Below the pieces are notes generated by a model, which ran no database searches, had not been told where the DNA came from, and saw only the letters and a list, made by a program, of their open reading frames with translations. The position numbers and the translations under genes were made by a program. This document shows positions 16,111 through 22,612 of a stretch of DNA of 36,449 nt, piece after piece. Source of the stretch: an uncultured Bacteroides sp. (lineage in GTDB: Bacteria; Bacteroidota; Bacteroidia; Bacteroidales; Bacteroidaceae); NCBI GenBank assembly GCA_945607605.1, contig CALYZE010000022.1:1-36449 (forward strand). Reading direction: 5' to 3'. Each line of letters opens with the position of its first letter. The stretch's first letter is position 1.

Positions 16111-18219
16111 TTAGAAACTGACGACTACCCTGTCTCCCAAACGCTTTGCCATGATACTTTTGATTTCGCGCAGGTCATTGTAGCGTTTCATCATGTTGTT
16201 GCATTTGGTTTCGTCATTCACAATAGCGGGATCTTGCAAGGCAGACATGATATGCTTGAGTTCTTCACTGACAATGGCATACTTAAAGTTAATCATCAGG
16301 GTAGGCACTAACTCATAGAGGCGGTCTTCGTCCGTCACCATTTGATCCATCTGTGACTTTCTTAACTGGTAACGGTTACTGATAAGCTCTACACTGAGTT
16401 TGCTGATAACGGTGTCAGGATGCGACAGGAAATAACGCTCAGCTGTAAAACCTTCCTTATGACTACGCTCGGCAGCTTCCGAAAGTATTTGCCGATGGAG
16501 CGGATTATGAAAGGCAAGTTCGTCTTCTTTCAAATCGTTGATGACGTATTCAGTGACGGTGATAGGTATCTCTATCCCTTCATCGTTGGTGATTTTACAC
16601 ATCACCCTTTCTCCGTAACGTACTACCATTTGCAGAATCAGCCGTTCAAATTTATAGAACTCTTGCCCCTCTTTCCCTTCTTGAGGAATAAACGAGATAT
16701 AGTTATCCTCCGGCGGAAAAGGAGCCGTAGCCTCGGGTGGAAAACCGGGAAGAGGCACTGTTTCAAGAGGAACATCGGTGGGCTGTTGCGAGCCGTTTAC
16801 AGAGCTCTCCGGCGGAACCTGATTTCCATGAATACCTGCTTCCGCATTCATTCTTGCTGCCTGTGCAGAACGGCGTTCCCGCTCGATGCGTTCCTTTTGT
16901 TTCTTGGCTTGCGTTTCACGACGTTTGGCTACTTCGGAAACTAACAACTTATCTTCTACGTGCAGCAATTGAGCACACTCTTTGATATATACGTCGCGTA
17001 CAATCGCTTCGGGAATAATCGAAATGCTTTGTATCAGATTGGCTATAAGCTCGGCACGTTTGATAGGATCTTTTCCGGCATCCTCAAGCAATAGATTGGT
17101 CTTGAAGCGGATAAAGTCCGTTTCGTTCTTCTGAATGAATTCTTGAAATTCCGTAGCGTTGTGCTTGCGGGCAAAAGAGTCAGGATCGTCCCCATCGGGC
17201 AGGAGGCAGACCTTGATATTCATGCCTTCTTCCAACAGCATGTCTATGCCTCGGATAGAGGCTTTGATACCGGCAGCGTCACCGTCGTAAAGCACGGTCA
17301 TATTGTTGGTGAAACGGTGAATCATGCGAATTTGTCCGGGTGTCAATGCCGTTCCTGAAGAAGACACTACATTTTCAACACCCGACTGATGCATGGAGAT
17401 GACATCCGTATAACCTTCTACCAGGAAACACCGATCTTGTTTCACAATGGCTTGCTTCGCAAAATAGATGCCATACAGCTCATTGCTCTTATGGTAAATC
17501 TCCGATTCAGGAGAATTGACATACTTCACCTTGATTCCCTTGGTTGCATTGGCAAGCACGCGTCCTCCAAAGGCCACTACTTTTCCGGATAGTGTGTGTA
17601 CCGGGAAGATGACCCGTCCCCAAAAGCGGTCACGCAGGCGGTGATCCTCTGTTTCGTAACAAAGGCCGGTCTTTATCAAAAATTCTTTCTTGTATCCTTT
17701 CCTCAACGCCTCTTCTGCAAGGGCGTTATGGCTTTCTGTGCAGTAGCCCAACTGGAACTTTTCGATGATATCATCCCGAAAGCCACGGCTACGGAAATAA
17801 GCCATACCAATGCTGCGCCCGTCTACATGGTTGCGAAGGATATGCTGGAAATACTCGAGTGCAAAGTTATTGACAATAAACAAACTCTCTCGCTCACTCT
17901 GAGCTATCTTTTCTTCATTGGAGAGTTCCCGTTCTTTGATTTCTATGCCGTACTTCTTGGCAAGGAATTTCAGTGCCTCAGGATAAGACATCTGTTCATG
18001 CTCCATGATGAAGTGCACGACGTTCCCACCCTTTCCACATGAAAAACATTTGCACAACCCTTTGGCAGGCGATACATAGAAAGAGGGCGTTTTGTCGTCA
18101 TGAAAAGGACATAGACCTACATAGTTGACACCACGCTTACGCAGGGTGACAAAGTCGGATACGACATCAGTAATCTGAGCCGCATCTAAAATTCGGTCTA
18201 TGGTGCCTTGATCAATCAT
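16111..18219 (-). CDS. dnaG: DNA primase
   Basis: DnaG makes the RNA primers for replication. The 702-residue product from ATG 18219 (MIDQGTIDRILDAAQITDVV) has a zinc-ribbon (Cys37, His40, Cys58, Cys61: CPFHDDKTPSF...CFSCGKGG). It then has the TOPRIM core with EGYTDVISMHQSG and LYDGDAAG, and a C-terminal helicase-interacting region after a Pro-rich linker (about 460-510). The frame stays open 17 codons further upstream, but the promoter at 18240-18271 lies there, so the shorter start is right. It has its own promoter downstream of the tyrA end, 30 bases away. Confidence 0.97.
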   Translation of the reverse strand: MIDQGTIDRILDAAQITDVVSDFVTLRKRGVNYVGLCPFHDDKTPSFYVSPAKGLCKCFSCGKGGNVVHFIMEHEQMSYPEALKFLAKKYGIEIKERELSNEEKIAQSERESLFIVNNFALEYFQHILRNHVDGRSIGMAYFRSRGFRDDIIEKFQLGYCTESHNALAEEALRKGYKKEFLIKTGLCYETEDHRLRDRFWGRVIFPVHTLSGKVVAFGGRVLANATKGIKVKYVNSPESEIYHKSNELYGIYFAKQAIVKQDRCFLVEGYTDVISMHQSGVENVVSSSGTALTPGQIRMIHRFTNNMTVLYDGDAAGIKASIRGIDMLLEEGMNIKVCLLPDGDDPDSFARKHNATEFQEFIQKNETDFIRFKTNLLLEDAGKDPIKRAELIANLIQSISIIPEAIVRDVYIKECAQLLHVEDKLLVSEVAKRRETQAKKQKERIERERRSAQAARMNAEAGIHGNQVPPESSVNGSQQPTDVPLETVPLPGFPPEATAPFPPEDNYISFIPQEGKEGQEFYKFERLILQMVVRYGERVMCKITNDEGIEIPITVTEYVINDLKEDELAFHNPLHRQILSEAAERSHKEGFTAERYFLSHPDTVISKLSVELISNRYQLRKSQMDQMVTDEDRLYELVPTLMINFKYAIVSEELKHIMSALQDPAIVNDETKCNNMMKRYNDLREIKSIMAKRLGDRVVVSF

Positions 18220-18239
18220 TTTTCTTCTTTTAGGTGATG

Positions 18240-18271
18240 CAAAAGTACATGATATTTTCGGGATTATCAAA
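18240..18271 (-). promoter_or_regulatory. Consensus Bacteroides promoter of dnaG
   Basis: The minus strand reads TTTG (18268-18271), a 20-base spacer, then TACTTTTG (18240-18247). Both elements and the spacer match the Bacteroides consensus exactly. Transcription would begin roughly 15 bases before the dnaG ATG at 18219. Confidence 0.75.
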
Positions 18272-18300
18272 TAGCAGTTGCCCTATAGTCACCCTCCCAC

Positions 18301-19074
18301 TCATTTAATTTTTTCCCGAATTTTAGTCAGGTATTTCTTCATCCCTTCCGCATCCTTGTTGGTAATGATTTCCAGTAGTTTCTTCAACTCTAGGCGGATG
18401 TTTTCCACTTGCGATGAAGTGCGAGGATTGAACAAAATCTCCTGAAGGAGGTAGTCATCTTCACTAAGCAGTCCCTTGGCAATGGCCATATGCTTCTTGA
18501 AAGTAGTGCCCGGTGCCTCCTGATGCTTCATGACCGCTGTGAATACAAAGGTGGAAACAAACGGAATGGACAAAGAATAGGCCACTGTTTCGTCATGTTC
18601 CTCAAAGCTATATTCAAAGATATTCAGCTTCATCGTCTGGTATAAATCTTTGAAGAAGATTTTTCCCAGATGGTCACCTTCATTGATGAGGATGGCATTT
18701 TCACTGCTCAGGTTGCTCAGGCTGGCAAAAGTCGGGCCGAACATGGGATGGGAGGATACATATCGGAAGCCACTCTCTTCATAGAACTTCTTTAACCCCG
18801 TTTTTACCGAAGCGATATCACTGATGATACAATCTTTGGGCAATACGGGCAGTACTTGTCGAAACGCATCCAGCGTATATTTTACGGTAGCGGCATTGAT
18901 GACCAACTCCGGTTCAAAATCTTTGATTTCTTCCAAAGTAGTGAAGCGGTAGGTGTTGTAAACAAAACGCAGTTGATGCGGGTTGACGTCAAACACGGCC
19001 GTCTCGTGTTGAAAACTTAAAATATCTGTGAAGAATGAGCCCATCTTCCCGGCTCCAAGTATCAATATTCTCAT
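18301..19074 (-). CDS. tyrA: Prephenate dehydrogenase
   Basis: TyrA oxidatively decarboxylates prephenate to 4-hydroxyphenylpyruvate, the Tyr branch from chorismate. The 257-residue protein has the Rossmann motif GAGKMG (7-12), the SSHPMFGP segment with the conserved prephenate-site His, and EEHDETVAYSLSIPF in the helical domain. It is short and lacks a C-terminal ACT regulatory domain or fused mutase; the mutase activity comes from the upstream gene, 30 bases away. It is the last gene of the aromatic operon. An arogenate-specific enzyme cannot be excluded. Confidence 0.92.
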   Translation of the reverse strand: MRILILGAGKMGSFFTDILSFQHETAVFDVNPHQLRFVYNTYRFTTLEEIKDFEPELVINAATVKYTLDAFRQVLPVLPKDCIISDIASVKTGLKKFYEESGFRYVSSHPMFGPTFASLSNLSSENAILINEGDHLGKIFFKDLYQTMKLNIFEYSFEEHDETVAYSLSIPFVSTFVFTAVMKHQEAPGTTFKKHMAIAKGLLSEDDYLLQEILFNPRTSSQVENIRLELKKLLEIITNKDAEGMKKYLTKIREKIK

Positions 19075-19104: not shown

Positions 19105-20172
19105 TCATTGATTGATGATCTCCATTTGTTGTCTCACGCTCTCTTCGTGTATAGCCTCAAACACTTTTTTTATAAATTCGGCATCCATGCCGCAAAGGGC
19201 ACCTTGCGATCCGCGCTTCTCAAGAATCTCGTTGTAGCGTCCGGTTTGGAGGATGGTCATGTCATGTTCTTTTTTGTACGTGCCGATTTCACGGGCTACA
19301 CGCATGCGTTTGGATAACTCTTGAATCAGGTTGTTGTCACATTCATCAATCTGCTTGCGCAATTGGCTGAGACTTTCCGTGCTTTGTGTTTCCTTGCGAA
19401 TGACAAGCAGGTTGAGAATATAGTCGAGTACATCGGGAGTCACTTGCTGGGCAGCATCACTCCATGCACAGTCGGGGTTGCAATGACTTTCGATAATCAG
19501 CCCATTGAAGCCCAGATCCATGGCCTGCTGAGAGAGGGAAGCAATGAATTCGCGTTTCCCACCGATGTGGCTTGGGTCACAAATGATGGGCAGATTAGGA
19601 ATGCGGCGGCGCAATTCGATGGGGATGTGCCATTGGGGCAAATTACGGTATATCTTCCGGTCGTAGCTACTGAAACCACGATGAATCACACCCAGACGCT
19701 TCAGTCCGGCGTTGTTGATACGTTCCAAAGCACCAATCCACAATTCGAGGTCCGGGTTTACCGGGTTCTTTATAAATACGGGAATATCTACGCCTTTCAA
19801 GGCATCGGCAATTTCCTGTACGGCAAAGGGGTTGGCTGTGGTACGTGCACCTACCCAAAGAATGTCTATATCTGCTTTCAAGCATTCATACACATGCTTT
19901 GCGGTGGCTACTTCGGTAGAGGTATACATACCTGTTTCCTTCTTCACCTGCTTTAACCAGGAAAGTCCTTCTACACCGATTCCTTCGAATCCACCGGGTT
20001 TTGTACGCGGCTTCCAGATGCCGGCACGAAATATTTTCAACCCTTTGTCTGCCAATTGTTTGGCGGTGCTCATAACTTGTTCTTCTGTTTCGGCACTGCA
20101 AGGGCCTGCAATGATCAACGGGCGTTTATTCTCTACGCCGGGAAGGATGATGGGTTCTAATTCAAGTTCCAT
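19105..20172 (-). CDS. Bifunctional DAHP synthase / chorismate mutase (type II)
   Basis: This 355-residue fusion covers the first shikimate step and the branch to prephenate. The N-terminal 260 residues are a KDO8P-synthase-like (type I beta) DAHP synthase: GPCSAE (23-28), KPRT (54-57), IHRGFSSYD, CDPSHIGG and IESHCNP. The C-terminal 90 residues (about 263-355) are an AroQ chorismate mutase: LRKQIDECDNNLIQELSKRM, VAREIGTYKKEH, and a terminal helix with EESVRQQ. Fusion of mutase to DAHP synthase is known in Bacteroidetes and lets prephenate feed back on entry to the pathway. An unusual 128-base repeat array lies upstream, between it and the aminotransferase gene. Confidence 0.95.
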   Translation of the reverse strand: MELELEPIILPGVENKRPLIIAGPCSAETEEQVMSTAKQLADKGLKIFRAGIWKPRTKPGGFEGIGVEGLSWLKQVKKETGMYTSTEVATAKHVYECLKADIDILWVGARTTANPFAVQEIADALKGVDIPVFIKNPVNPDLELWIGALERINNAGLKRLGVIHRGFSSYDRKIYRNLPQWHIPIELRRRIPNLPIICDPSHIGGKREFIASLSQQAMDLGFNGLIIESHCNPDCAWSDAAQQVTPDVLDYILNLLVIRKETQSTESLSQLRKQIDECDNNLIQELSKRMRVAREIGTYKKEHDMTILQTGRYNEILEKRGSQGALCGMDAEFIKKVFEAIHEESVRQQMEIINQ

Positions 20173-20226: not shown

Positions 20227-20355
20227 CTTGTGTTTCTTACTTTGAAACGAAGTGTTCCTTCTAATAGAACAGTTTGTTTCTTCCTAATGAAACGGTTTGT
20301 TTCTCTTAATAGAACAGTGTGTTCCTTCTAATGAGAACAGTTTGTTCTTCTTAAC
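20227..20355 (-). repeat. Array of five 22-23-bp units with inverted-repeat cores
   Basis: On the minus strand five head-to-tail units follow each other without gaps: 20338-20316, 20315-20294, 20293-20271, 20270-20249 and 20248-20227. A partial copy (20355-20339) overlaps the aminotransferase stop codon. Unit core is about GTTCTATTAGAAGGAACA. Units 1 and 4 have GTTC/GAAC arms; units 3 and 5 have GTTTC/GAAAC arms, so both arms changed together. Unit 2 is imperfect. The array fills most of the gap before the DAHP synthase gene. Its role is unknown. Confidence 0.8.
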
Positions 20356-21535
20356 CCATTACTTCCTTGATGCGCTTCAGTGCTTCCGCCAGTTTGTCTT
20401 CCTTGCAACAAAGAGAAATACGGATGTATCTTTTTCCGTTGCTTCCAAAGATGAATCCCGGTGTGAGGAAAACCCTTGCTTCCTGAAGTATACGTTCGGT
20501 CAGCTCTTCAACTTCGGCACAGCTATCGGGTATTTTCCCCCAGAGAAACATGCCTACTTGGGTGTCATCATAGGTACATCCCAACGCATGCATAATTTCA
20601 CCGGCCAACTGTCGGCGGTTGCGATAATTCCGGTTGTTGCCGTCATACCACTCTTTTTCGGCTTCCAAGGCTTTGGTGGCAGCCAATTGCATGGCGCGGA
20701 ACATGCCACTGTCAATGTTGCTCTTTACTTTCAATATCCATTGCACGAAATCAGCGTTGGAGGCAAGCATGCCGATACGCCAGCCCGGCATGTTGTGGCT
20801 CTTGCTCATAGAGTTGAATTCGATGCAGCAATCTTTGGCTCCCGGCACACTGAGTATACTGAGGGGGCGTTCGTTTAGAATAAAGCTGTACGGATTGTCG
20901 TTAACGATGACAAGGTCTTTGCGACGGGCGAAGTCCACTAATTTGCGGTAAAGCTCCGGGGTGGCATTGGCTCCGGTGGGCATGTTGGGATAGTTGGTCC
21001 ACATCAGCTTGACACGGCTCATGTCCATCTTCTCCAGCTCATCAAAGTCGGGCATCCAGCCGTTTTCTTCTTTCAGATCGTAAGGAACCACTTCAGCACC
21101 CAGTATCTTGCTCAACGAAGTATAGGTAGGGTAGCCGGGATTGGGCACCAACACCTGTTCGCCGGGATTGACAAAAGCCAAAGTTACGTGCAGGATGCCT
21201 TCTTTGGAACCGATGAGTGGCTGTACTTCCGTATTCGGATTCAGTTCCACCTCGTACCATTTCTTGTACCAATGGGCAAAACTGCACCGTAGTTCGGGAA
21301 TGCCTATATAGGGTTGGTAGCCATGCCCATTAGGATTGCGGGCCGCTTCACAAAGCGTTTCAATGGTGCTTTCGGAAGGTGGCATATCGGGGCTGCCGAT
21401 ACCGAGGCTGATGACATCTTTGCCTTCAGCATTCATTTGCGCTACTTCTTTCAGCTTTTTAGAGAAGTAGTATTCGCTGACGCTTGCCAGGCGGTCGGCA
21501 GGTTTGATTTTAGATCGTTGATTTTCCATCTTCAT
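20351..21535 (-). CDS. Class I/II pyridoxal-phosphate aminotransferase (probably aromatic amino acid)
   Basis: This 394-residue fold-type I aminotransferase has the PLP-binding Lys245 in NSMSKSHNMPGWRIG, NPGYPTY for the phosphate/ring region, and NYPNMPTGA with the conserved Asn. By sequence it belongs to the broad aspartate/LL-diaminopimelate group. Its position between pheA and DAHP synthase/chorismate mutase points to amination of phenylpyruvate and 4-hydroxyphenylpyruvate to Phe and Tyr. The start overlaps the end of pheA by 26 bases (or 20 if Met3 is used), so the two are translationally coupled. Substrate specificity is inferred from context only. Confidence 0.88.
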   Translation of the reverse strand: MKMENQRSKIKPADRLASVSEYYFSKKLKEVAQMNAEGKDVISLGIGSPDMPPSESTIETLCEAARNPNGHGYQPYIGIPELRCSFAHWYKKWYEVELNPNTEVQPLIGSKEGILHVTLAFVNPGEQVLVPNPGYPTYTSLSKILGAEVVPYDLKEENGWMPDFDELEKMDMSRVKLMWTNYPNMPTGANATPELYRKLVDFARRKDLVIVNDNPYSFILNERPLSILSVPGAKDCCIEFNSMSKSHNMPGWRIGMLASNADFVQWILKVKSNIDSGMFRAMQLAATKALEAEKEWYDGNNRNYRNRRQLAGEIMHALGCTYDDTQVGMFLWGKIPDSCAEVEELTERILQEARVFLTPGFIFGSNGKRYIRISLCCKEDKLAEALKRIKEVMG

Positions 21536-22358
21536 ATTCTCCTAATATTTTAAGTTCTTTGGTCAGCGGGGTAATTGCAACAATGGATTGTTTATACCTC
21601 AATACATTGTCGAAAACAACATCCACATAAAATTGATATTCCCATTCACGTCCTATAATGGGGAGCGACTGTATCTTTGTCAGGTTGATGTTGTAGAAAG
21701 ATAAGATGGACAGTACTTGTGAAAGGCTTCCCTCGGTATGCGGAAGAGTGAATACCATGCTGGCCTTGTTGATGGCTTTCTGGCGGTGGCGGTTCAGCTC
21801 GTCCACTTGCCAGGGATCGGCCACCACTAAAAAACGGGTAAAGTTATGTTTGTTGGTTTCGATTCCTTCTTGTAGCACTTTCATTCCATACCGTTCGGCG
21901 GCAGCTTTGGAGCAGATGGCGGCATGTCCCTTCAGATTCTCTTTCTTTATGATTTCGGCGCTCAAAGCCGTATCTTCTGCTTCTACGACCTTAATCTTTG
22001 GGTGTTGACCAAGGAATTCACGGCATTGCATCAAGGCGATGGGGTGGGAGTTGACTTCTGTAATGTCTTCCCAGGTTTCTTCGGGCAGGCAAACAAAACT
22101 GTGAGAGATGCGTAATTTATATTCTCCTACGATTTGTATCCCACTCTGGCGCAACAACTCATTGTTGTGCAACAGGCTGCCTGCAATCGTGTTTTCTATC
22201 GCCAACATGCCTATCGTTTGATTGTCTTTCTTTACGGCCGCAAACACATCTTCAAAGTTGGCGCAACAGATTAACTCTATGTCTTCTCCTTCGAAATACT
22301 TGTGTGCGGCGATGTCGTGATATGAGCCTAATGTTCCTTGAATGGCTACCTTTTTCAT
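21510..22358 (-). CDS. pheA: Prephenate dehydratase with ACT domain
   Basis: PheA converts prephenate to phenylpyruvate. The 282-residue protein has a catalytic domain (about 1-185) with GTLGSYHDIAA, the AIENTIAGSLLHNN loop and the TRF motif (174-176) that carries the catalytic Thr. A C-terminal ACT domain follows (about 198-275), the usual site of Phe feedback; the motif usually written GALV appears here as GSLS, and ESRP as IQSLP, so allosteric tuning may differ. There is no fused chorismate mutase. It is the first structural gene of the aromatic operon, and its ATG lies 25 bases after the attenuator terminator. Confidence 0.95.
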   Translation of the reverse strand: MKKVAIQGTLGSYHDIAAHKYFEGEDIELICCANFEDVFAAVKKDNQTIGMLAIENTIAGSLLHNNELLRQSGIQIVGEYKLRISHSFVCLPEETWEDITEVNSHPIALMQCREFLGQHPKIKVVEAEDTALSAEIIKKENLKGHAAICSKAAAERYGMKVLQEGIETNKHNFTRFLVVADPWQVDELNRHRQKAINKASMVFTLPHTEGSLSQVLSILSFYNINLTKIQSLPIIGREWEYQFYVDVVFDNVLRYKQSIVAITPLTKELKILGEYEDGKSTI

Positions 22359-22383
22359 GATCTATTTTCGTTAGTTATGCTAC

Positions 22384-22418
22384 AAAAAAATCCCGCGTCC
22401 ATAGGATGGAGCGGGATT
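22384..22418 (-). terminator. Attenuator terminator upstream of pheA
   Basis: On the minus strand AATCCCGC (22418-22411) pairs with GCGGGATT (22396-22389) and TCCAT (22410-22406) with ATGGA (22402-22398), giving 13 bp with one bulged C and a CCT loop, then a run of T to 22384. It sits inside the pheA leader, before the gene rather than after one. The 5' arm is also complementary to leader codons 21-23 (GAGCGGGA at 22488-22481), which offers a competing antiterminator. Confidence 0.88.
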
Positions 22419-22422
22419 CAGT

Positions 22423-22528
22423 ATATTACTTCGTTCTCTCTTCAGTTCTTAAGCATCACTGTCACTTGATACATACAAACTCCCGCTCTACTTTCTGGCT
22501 AAAGTAAAAGTAAAAAAAGAAGTAATAT
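22423..22528 (-). promoter_or_regulatory. Attenuator pairing segments of the aromatic operon leader
   Basis: Two pairings can be read directly on the minus strand. First, ATATTACTTC (22528-22519, leader codons 7-10) is perfectly complementary to GAAGTAATAT (22432-22423), just before the terminator, over 10 bp. Second, GAGCGGGA (22488-22481, codons 21-23) is perfectly complementary to TCCCGCTC (22416-22409), the 5' arm of the terminator, over 8 bp. When the first forms, it traps the second's left arm in its loop and leaves the terminator free. A ribosome stalled on the aromatic codons blocks the first and frees the second. Confidence 0.8.
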
Positions 22529-22548
22529 GCATAAGTAAATGATTTCAT
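22462..22548 (-). CDS. Phe/Tyr leader peptide of the aromatic operon attenuator
   Basis: This is a 28-codon ORF on the minus strand, ATG at 22548-22546 and TGA at 22464-22462. Residues 4-16 read FTYAYYFFFYFYF, so 11 of 13 are Phe or Tyr; over the whole peptide 7 Phe and 5 Tyr make 12 of 28. It lies about 30 bases after a TACTTTTG promoter element and ends 44 bases before the start of a terminator stem that precedes pheA. The composition, position and mutually exclusive pairings are those of a ribosome-stalling leader peptide. It has no expected function as a protein; its translation rate would report Phe- and Tyr-tRNA charging. Confidence 0.88.
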   Translation of the reverse strand: MKSFTYAYYFFFYFYFSQKVEREFVCIK

Positions 22549-22578
22549 ACTTATATTCTCTGTTTTTGAATAATGCGA

Positions 22579-22612
22579 CAAAAGTAATGCTTTTCTTTTA
22601 TATACAAGCAAA
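22579..22612 (-). promoter_or_regulatory. Promoter of the aromatic amino acid operon
   Basis: The minus strand has TACTTTTG (22579-22586), an exact TAnnTTTG. Upstream are TTG at 22605-22607 (18-base spacer) and TTTG at 22609-22612 (22-base spacer), either of which could serve as the -33 element. It would start a transcript just ahead of the leader peptide ATG at 22548. The 301-base gap between pheA and the TPR gene holds this promoter, the leader peptide and the attenuator; the first 45 bases after the TPR stop show nothing else clear. Confidence 0.6.

Follow-up and report, generated by a model that had tools for sequence, protein, structure and literature searches.

The DNA upstream of pheA in an uncultured Bacteroides sp. 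raises the question of how transcription of the phenylalanine and tyrosine genes is controlled in this organism. The window analyzed here is a stretch of 36,449 nucleotides (contig CALYZE010000022.1), on the minus strand of which a TPR gene, a TACTTTTG box, a short leader ORF, a hairpin at the leader stop codon, a terminator, and pheA follow one another (Table 1). A sequence-only reading of this DNA had proposed ribosome-mediated attenuation through Phe and Tyr codons, and the parts that it named (a promoter element, the ORF, a terminator, and pairings of 10 and 8 bp) are all present. The comparisons described below support that proposal through the aromatic ORFs of relatives, their spacing, and covariation, and they add a stop-codon hairpin, a wide spread, and tandem versions. 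We conclude that the leader is very probably a ribosome-mediated transcription attenuator that would read charged tRNA-Phe and tRNA-Tyr together, by folding that we computed and by stalling and a response that the arrangement predicts.

RESULTS

A probable aromatic operon behind a leader

Prephenate dehydratase, an aminotransferase, a DAHP synthase-chorismate mutase fusion, and prephenate dehydrogenase adjoin one another by their Pfam matches and, as the sequence-only reading had it, probably form one operon. Of the 80 loci L031-L110, 70 share the order pheA-aminotransferase-DAHP synthase/mutase-tyrA, and several of the others are short contigs. The ACT match of pheA is weak (20.3 bits; cut-off, 27), and the closest named relatives of pheA are from Bacteroides (class Bacteroidia by NCBI lineage). 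No terminator was found between tyrA and dnaG (positions 18190-18300, minus strand); dnaG lies close behind tyrA with a TACTTTTG box before it and may have its own promoter.

TABLE 1 Positions of the leader elements and downstream genes in the window
Feature	Position	Strand	Basis or remark
-7 promoter box TACTTTTG	22579..22586	minus	Fits Bacteroidota consensus TAnnTTTG
Leader peptide ORF MKSFTYAYYFFFYFYFSQKVEREFVCIK, 28 codons	22462..22548	minus	ATG 22548, TGA 22462
Sensor codons 4-16, Phe/Tyr 11/13	22501..22539	minus	Genus alignment
Protector hairpin, 5′ strand (strand 1)	22507..22531	minus	Minimum free energy (MFE) fold of untranslated leader
Protector hairpin, 3′ strand (strand 2)	22470..22494	minus	Pairs 7/8 antiterminator bases
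Antiterminator strand GAGCGGGA	22481..22488	minus	Begins 12 nt past last aromatic codon; within ORF
Hinge hairpin spanning leader stop (AGUUU:GAACU, GUAUC:GAUGC)	22444..22481	minus	Fold and genus alignment
Intrinsic terminator hairpin	22388..22419	minus	14 pairs with bulge (fold); 5′ arm 22416-22409 common to antiterminator
Terminator T-run	22384..22390	minus	25 nt before pheA ATG (22358)
pheA, prephenate dehydratase	21510..22358	minus	PF00800, E 1.8e-56
Class I/II aminotransferase	20351..21535	minus	PF00155, E 1.2e-60; overlaps pheA end
DAHP synthase-chorismate mutase fusion	19105..20172	minus	PF00793 and PF01817
tyrA, prephenate dehydrogenase	18301..19074	minus	PF02153

Aromatic leader ORFs are widespread upstream of pheA

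Homologues of pheA were found in 112 of 119 genus, 108 of 121 family, 68 of 148 order, and 172 of 198 phylum genomes; these terms, like class, are kinship labels of the genome samples searched. Upstream sequences were read for 253 loci, a part of the pheA matches (at most 30 per sample search plus 60 chosen regions), and a leader was scored as an ORF of 10 to 60 codons starting with ATG, GTG, or TTG and containing at least 7 aromatic residues in 14 codons. The sequence-only reading had proposed aligning relatives in search of a Phe/Tyr ORF and covarying stems. Such an ORF was present in 232 of the 253 upstream sequences, near-identical loci counted, and 205 of these leaders were distinct, doubtful non-ATG ORFs such as those of L155 and L222 included; of the stems, the antiterminator and hinge covaried and the 10-bp pairing was not conserved (see below). 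The 28-codon ORF with 11 aromatic residues in 13 codons was confirmed in the window, and aromatic ORFs are far more frequent before pheA than in shuffled sequence: mononucleotide shuffles of 97 leader-bearing upstream sequences gave an aromatic ORF in 14 of 970 cases, and random 400-nt windows from loci L031-L110 contained one in 29 of 960, several being the leader itself.

By kinship, the leader was present in 104 of 110 loci of L001-L110 (mostly genus, with L001-L030 overlapping L031-L110), in 8/8 additional genus loci, in 51/59 loci from other genera of the family, in 41/47 from other families of the order (the missed L158 has 15 nt upstream, and L155 is doubtful), and in 25/26 elsewhere in the class. 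All three loci from outside the class also had it, a biased pick from among the best pheA matches. Among 20 further chosen out-of-class loci, one had a clear leader (L259), one a doubtful leader (L272), and 18 had none. Fewer than 7 aromatics in 14 codons were found at 17 of the 253 loci, and 4 (L009, L038, L073, and L158) had no usable upstream sequence. Loci short of the threshold include L028 and L051, near contig ends; L188, L212, L217, and L220, with 6 aromatics; and L070, L147, L148, L183, L191, and L248. No aromatic leader was found at the family loci L199-L203, where a divergent pheA (36 to 39% identity over the fetched part) is perhaps a replaced gene.

The leader is followed by an intrinsic terminator

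The terminator that had been described for this locus stood as to its hairpin, T-run, and 25-nt distance from pheA; its stem, counted there as 13 bp, has 14 pairs with a bulge in the computed fold. A hairpin of −6 kcal/mol or lower was found in 197 of the 205 distinct leaders, and the 8 that failed this criterion were left out of the antiterminator analysis. A greedy cut of the 197 at 80% similarity left 97 non-redundant leaders, which range from genus to class plus three outside the class. Rows were admitted to the genus-level alignments (83 and 62 rows) if the peptide contained REFVC, a terminator was present, and pheA was at least 75% identical, a choice that favors conserved leaders. In the genus alignment, 93.2% of terminator cells were paired, with double-change counts that were unremarkable beside those of slid versions. 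In L079 and L104 the leader is present and the terminator 5′ arm is apparently deleted; the operon there should be independent of attenuation, or the assembly is at fault.

A terminator in this position might merely end the upstream TPR transcript, with the aromatic ORF a by-product of T-rich DNA. The TPR gene does lie upstream on the same strand, as it does in 47 of 80 loci (L031-L110). However, tblastn (E, 1e-5; 1.5-kb flank where the contig allows) placed a TPR gene upstream in only 11 of 54 loci of L111-L164, a count that a diverged copy could escape, while most of these loci kept the leader. Moreover, the promoter box stands between the TPR gene and the leader, and the ORF, the spacing, and the covariation all exceed shuffles. 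We therefore regard this explanation as extremely improbable. Of the 97 non-redundant leaders, 80 have TAnnTTTG, named as the Bacteroidota promoter consensus in PMC9723704, at most 60 nt before the leader start, where shuffles would give 3.96.

Phe and Tyr codons alternate in the run

The terminator and operon fit an attenuator, and the codons of the run bear on what it would sense. Of the 97 non-redundant leaders, 94 had two or more residues each of Phe and Tyr. A real attenuator might nevertheless be read mainly by one amino acid, the codons for the other being incidental, and Phe is the more frequent (mean residues per leader, 5.5 for Phe and 3.9 for Tyr) and usually comes last (the last aromatic codon is Phe in 74, Tyr in 19, and Trp in 4 of 97). 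Against this, 90 of 97 leaders have both residues among the final five codons of the run, and the operon genes serve both branches. The alternation TAC TTT TAC TTT is also nearly fixed in the genus: all 83 genus-level leaders have TTT TAC TTT at codons 14 to 16, and 82 have TAC at codon 13, the remaining row having a gap. Reading by one amino acid, a sub-case of the attenuator, thus seems rather unlikely, and from codons and gene content we infer joint sensing of Phe and Tyr.

Trp stood within the run in 24 of the 97 leaders (L205, L231, L247, L252, and others), mostly those with a less similar pheA. Some of these leaders may sense Trp too.

The antiterminator strand usually lies 7 to 14 nt past the last aromatic codon

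The sequence GAGCGGGA (22488-22481) exactly complements TCCCGCTC (22416-22409) in the terminator 5′ arm. This is the 8-bp antiterminator that the sequence-only reading had set against the terminator, and the comparisons that follow support it. To locate the antiterminator strand, the sequence following the aromatic run was compared with the terminator 5′ arm in each leader that has a terminator, and the best ungapped helix was kept. In 83 of the 97 non-redundant leaders the strand began 7 to 14 nt past the last aromatic codon, compared with 1,464 of 9,700 shuffles (15%); 248 of the 9,700 matched the real score. In the other 14 leaders the best strand lay outside this range, and at three of these loci (L143, L218, and L224) the leaders are in tandem and the scan paired the first leader with the second terminator. 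The most common distance was 12 nt (94 of the 197 leaders, a set heavy in close relatives).

Leaders also paired better with their own terminators than with those of other leaders. The score was 21.15 for own pairs and 14.93 (standard deviation, 0.30) when terminators were swapped, and 0 of 2,000 swaps were as good. The difference was seen both at pheA identities of at least 60% (48 leaders; 22.62 own versus 18.34 swapped) and below 60% (49 leaders; 19.70 versus 13.59), and the 83 strand pairs comprised 68 different sequences. Within the 62 genus leaders, 100% of antiterminator cells were paired with 22416-22409, 7 of the 8 pairs being invariant. Since own pairing beats swaps while the strands themselves differ, the strand is kept for pairing and not for the residues it encodes.

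A ribosome covers about 10 nt beyond its A-site codon, as known from toeprint data. A 12-nt spacing would therefore leave the antiterminator strand roughly just clear of a ribosome at the last aromatic codon. The stall geometry proposed earlier, in which a ribosome at codon 16 ends short of position 22488, is borne out by the 7- to 14-nt spacing in 83 of 97 leaders.

The peptide itself might act instead, as a TnaC-like nascent-chain arrest peptide that senses free Phe or Tyr rather than empty tRNA, and in Bacteroides the leader peptide hardly varies, even in its tail KVEREFVC. More distant leaders, however, rebuild the run and lose the tail or change frame, yet keep the RNA strand. Among the 83 leaders with 7- to 14-nt spacing, the strand occurred in all three codon phases (0, 1, and 2 in 30, 19, and 34 leaders, respectively) and lay within the ORF (56 leaders), overlapped the stop (16), or followed it (11). 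All three phases and the variable stop position argue that the strand is kept as RNA and not as peptide; the fixed synonymous positions of codons 14 to 16 likewise fit RNA pairing. An arrest peptide is thus very improbable, and attenuation by the position of the ribosome is the reading pursued here.

A putative protector hairpin and a stop-codon hinge in the genus

In the MFE structure of the untranslated leader, codons 6 to 14 pair with codons 19 to 27 of the same ORF. In the 62 genus leaders, 97.9% of the cells of this protector hairpin were paired, compared with at most 65.1% for slid versions. Its double-change cells numbered 18, all in one pair at a base common to the hinge, and many other pairs were invariant or varied on one side only; support for the protector appears to come mainly from fixed synonymous positions (codons 13 to 16). 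In a separate scan, 5 or fewer of 100 shuffles were as good in just 19 of the 97 non-redundant leaders; with T-rich and purine-rich strands, such mononucleotide shuffles have little power. Within the genus, the self-fold of the ORF over the antiterminator strand is a conserved putative trap.

A different trap had been proposed for codons 21 to 23, a 10-bp pairing of ATATTACTTC (22528-22519) with GAAGTAATAT (22432-22423), which is perfect in this leader. It did not survive comparison. In the 62 aligned genus leaders, 62.0% of its cells were paired versus 60.5% (standard deviation, 0.6) for shuffled versions, and five of its ten pairs were broken in at least 33 of the 62. It beat most shuffles (2 of 500 were as high) and slid versions (at most 59.4%), which makes it slightly better than random and no kept helix, and we rejected it as the trap. 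The pairing encloses the antiterminator strand without covering any of its bases.

The hinge hairpin, which spans the leader stop codon, showed compensatory change in the genus alignment. Pair 22470:22455 was AU in 23, GC in 19, GU in 14, other in 3, and a gap in 3 of the 62 leaders. Antiterminator and hinge together had 98.2% of cells paired (best slid version, 57.9%), with both-side changes at 4 pairs and 25 cells versus 0.6 and 1.5, respectively, for shuffled versions. By eye, L116, L117, and L120 had no hinge and L086, L099, and L100 had an altered one, so the hinge seems to help without being essential.

Computed folding of stalled and untranslated leaders

Folding preferences were computed for the states that the attenuator would pass through. 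Before the terminator 3′ arm of this leader is made, the antiterminator had a predicted probability of 0.96 when a ribosome occupied codon 16 and 0.00 without translation, when the leader folds on itself and masks the antiterminator strand. The antiterminator was in the MFE structure at all six stall positions (codons 6, 10, 12, 13, 15, and 16). The calculation was extended to 192 of the 197 leaders (spacing, 5 to 18 nt), divided into a genus-like set (86) and two more distant sets (60 and 46). With a stalled ribosome, the antiterminator probability was at least 0.5 in 85 of 86, 56 of 60, and 28 of 46 leaders, respectively; for untranslated leaders, the corresponding counts were 40 of 86, 36 of 60, and 31 of 46. 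Because the stalled count (28) was below the untranslated count (31) in the most distant set, there is no computed switch in that set. Median untranslated probabilities were 0.42, 0.84, and 0.89, respectively, so masking is predicted to be weaker outside the genus-like set.

Folding of the complete transcript at equilibrium was uninformative as a test of the switch. The terminator won in all three states (medians, 0.905 to 0.945 in the genus-like set), so a switch would have to be kinetic. With a ribosome at the stop codon, all upstream sequence was hidden by construction, and this state has no bearing on that step.

Tandem leaders and candidate sister devices

The 97 non-redundant leaders were scanned for a second aromatic ORF over the 369 to 500 nt that precede pheA. 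L140, L143, and L144 contain two successive leader ORFs, and each ORF has a terminator of its own and a candidate antiterminator strand that fits it (distances, 11 to 13 nt; scores, 18 to 28). A similar tandem was found in L214, L218, L224, and L239, where one or both strands scored below 18, and L225 is incomplete.

The source genome also contains a leader with six His codons, MKNMVAHHHHHHPDE, and a strong terminator before hisG (L274, 1177-1312), with the same TACTTTTG box; it is probably a histidine attenuator. Likewise, a leader with three Trp codons, MKTMFINTNWWWHSTTPTVVREQRSYVYM, and a strong terminator (L275, 15-165) precede a gene starting at L275:237, which stands upstream of a trpE-like match, and this is probably a tryptophan attenuator. 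For both, the best antiterminator lay 13 nt past the last sensor codon, with shuffles as high in 18 of 500 (His) and 68 of 500 (Trp) cases. Before the aspartokinase/homoserine dehydrogenase gene of the same genome (L277), the ORF MNQCYQHTVTSMCTMTLRG has 4 Thr in 10 codons, with a T-run within 180 nt, and is a weak candidate for a threonine leader.

DISCUSSION

The pheA leader combines a run of codons for the amino acids made by the operon, an intrinsic terminator, a covarying antiterminator strand, and a spacing that would leave that strand free; these parts, their conservation, covariation, and spacing are read from sequence and its comparison among relatives. In the proposed mechanism, RNA polymerase would start at the TACTTTTG promoter and a ribosome would begin the 28-codon leader. 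When Phe- or Tyr-tRNA is short, the ribosome would stall in codons 4 to 16; one waiting at codon 16 would end at about 22488, having opened the protector hairpin and left the antiterminator strand free. The hinge hairpin would then bring GAGCGGGA against UCCCGCUC in the terminator 5′ arm before the 3′ arm is made, and with the antiterminator formed, polymerase would enter pheA, the aminotransferase gene, the DAHP synthase/mutase gene, and tyrA. When Phe and Tyr are plentiful, the ribosome would reach the stop codon and disturb the hinge and the antiterminator strand, and the terminator would form. Without translation, the ORF would fold on itself and mask the antiterminator strand, and the terminator would form as well. 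The fold that prevails in vivo and the responsiveness to Phe and Tyr are predictions of this scheme.

The mechanism is classical. In the E. coli trp and his attenuators, strands pair 1:2, 2:3, and 3:4, and the same logic applies here. The leader described here differs in having a separate stop-codon hinge hairpin inside the antiterminator loop; we know of no such hinge in the E. coli trp and his attenuators. E. coli pheL is not known to be read by any amino acid but Phe, whereas in the present leader Phe codons alternate with Tyr codons and the downstream genes include DAHP synthase and tyrA. The likeness to the E. coli pheA attenuator (pheL, RF01859) consists of an aromatic-rich leader peptide and a terminator before the prephenate dehydratase gene, together with weak full-length matches to the covariance model. 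The match scored 24.8 bits in the window and at best 36.9 (L224) among 20 chosen relatives; the window, L224, L197, and L179 are all below the gathering score of 55, and membership in the Rfam Phe_leader family was rejected. The search for an existing Rfam family that the sequence-only reading had suggested gave no match at the gathering score for any of 4,227 families over the whole window, T-box and other cis-regulators included.

Related arrangements have been reported. In Flavobacterium psychrophilum, of the same phylum, there are strong clues for leader-peptide attenuation before amino acid biosynthesis operons (PMC9723704); the main text of that paper contains neither "phenylalanine" nor "tryptophan," and its supplement may hold a pheA case. 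Small ORFs reminiscent of leader peptides are described in 5′ untranslated regions of B. thetaiotaomicron (PMC7366714). The tandem leaders L140, L143, and L144 resemble Salmonella mgtCBR, where a pair of short ORFs within one long leader is expected to control operon transcription (PMC3641672), although that operon, as described there, encodes MgtC and a Mg2+ transporter and is no amino acid operon. Among the best open-licence matches listed, judged by titles and abstract openings, no description of a Phe/Tyr attenuator in Bacteroidota was found. Within the open-licence literature searched, the tandem forms, the wide distribution, and the alternation of Phe and Tyr codons appear to be undescribed.

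It is plausible, if somewhat short of probable, that the aromatic pathway of Bacteroidia has one ancestral attenuator with a fixed 7- to 14-nt ruler, whatever the peptide, frame, or stop; that the His and Trp leaders share this distance (13 nt each, weakly supported); that some lineages stacked two; and that attenuation, not repressors, is the main control of aromatic and histidine synthesis. If so, two stacked Phe/Tyr attenuators in series should steepen the response. Bacteroides and its kin are major gut bacteria, and the literature searched yielded little on control of their amino acid synthesis. The leader would provide a concrete, easily tested control point that couples entry into the whole pathway to the supply of Phe and Tyr, and its relatives form a large natural collection in which to study how the position of the ribosome becomes RNA folding.
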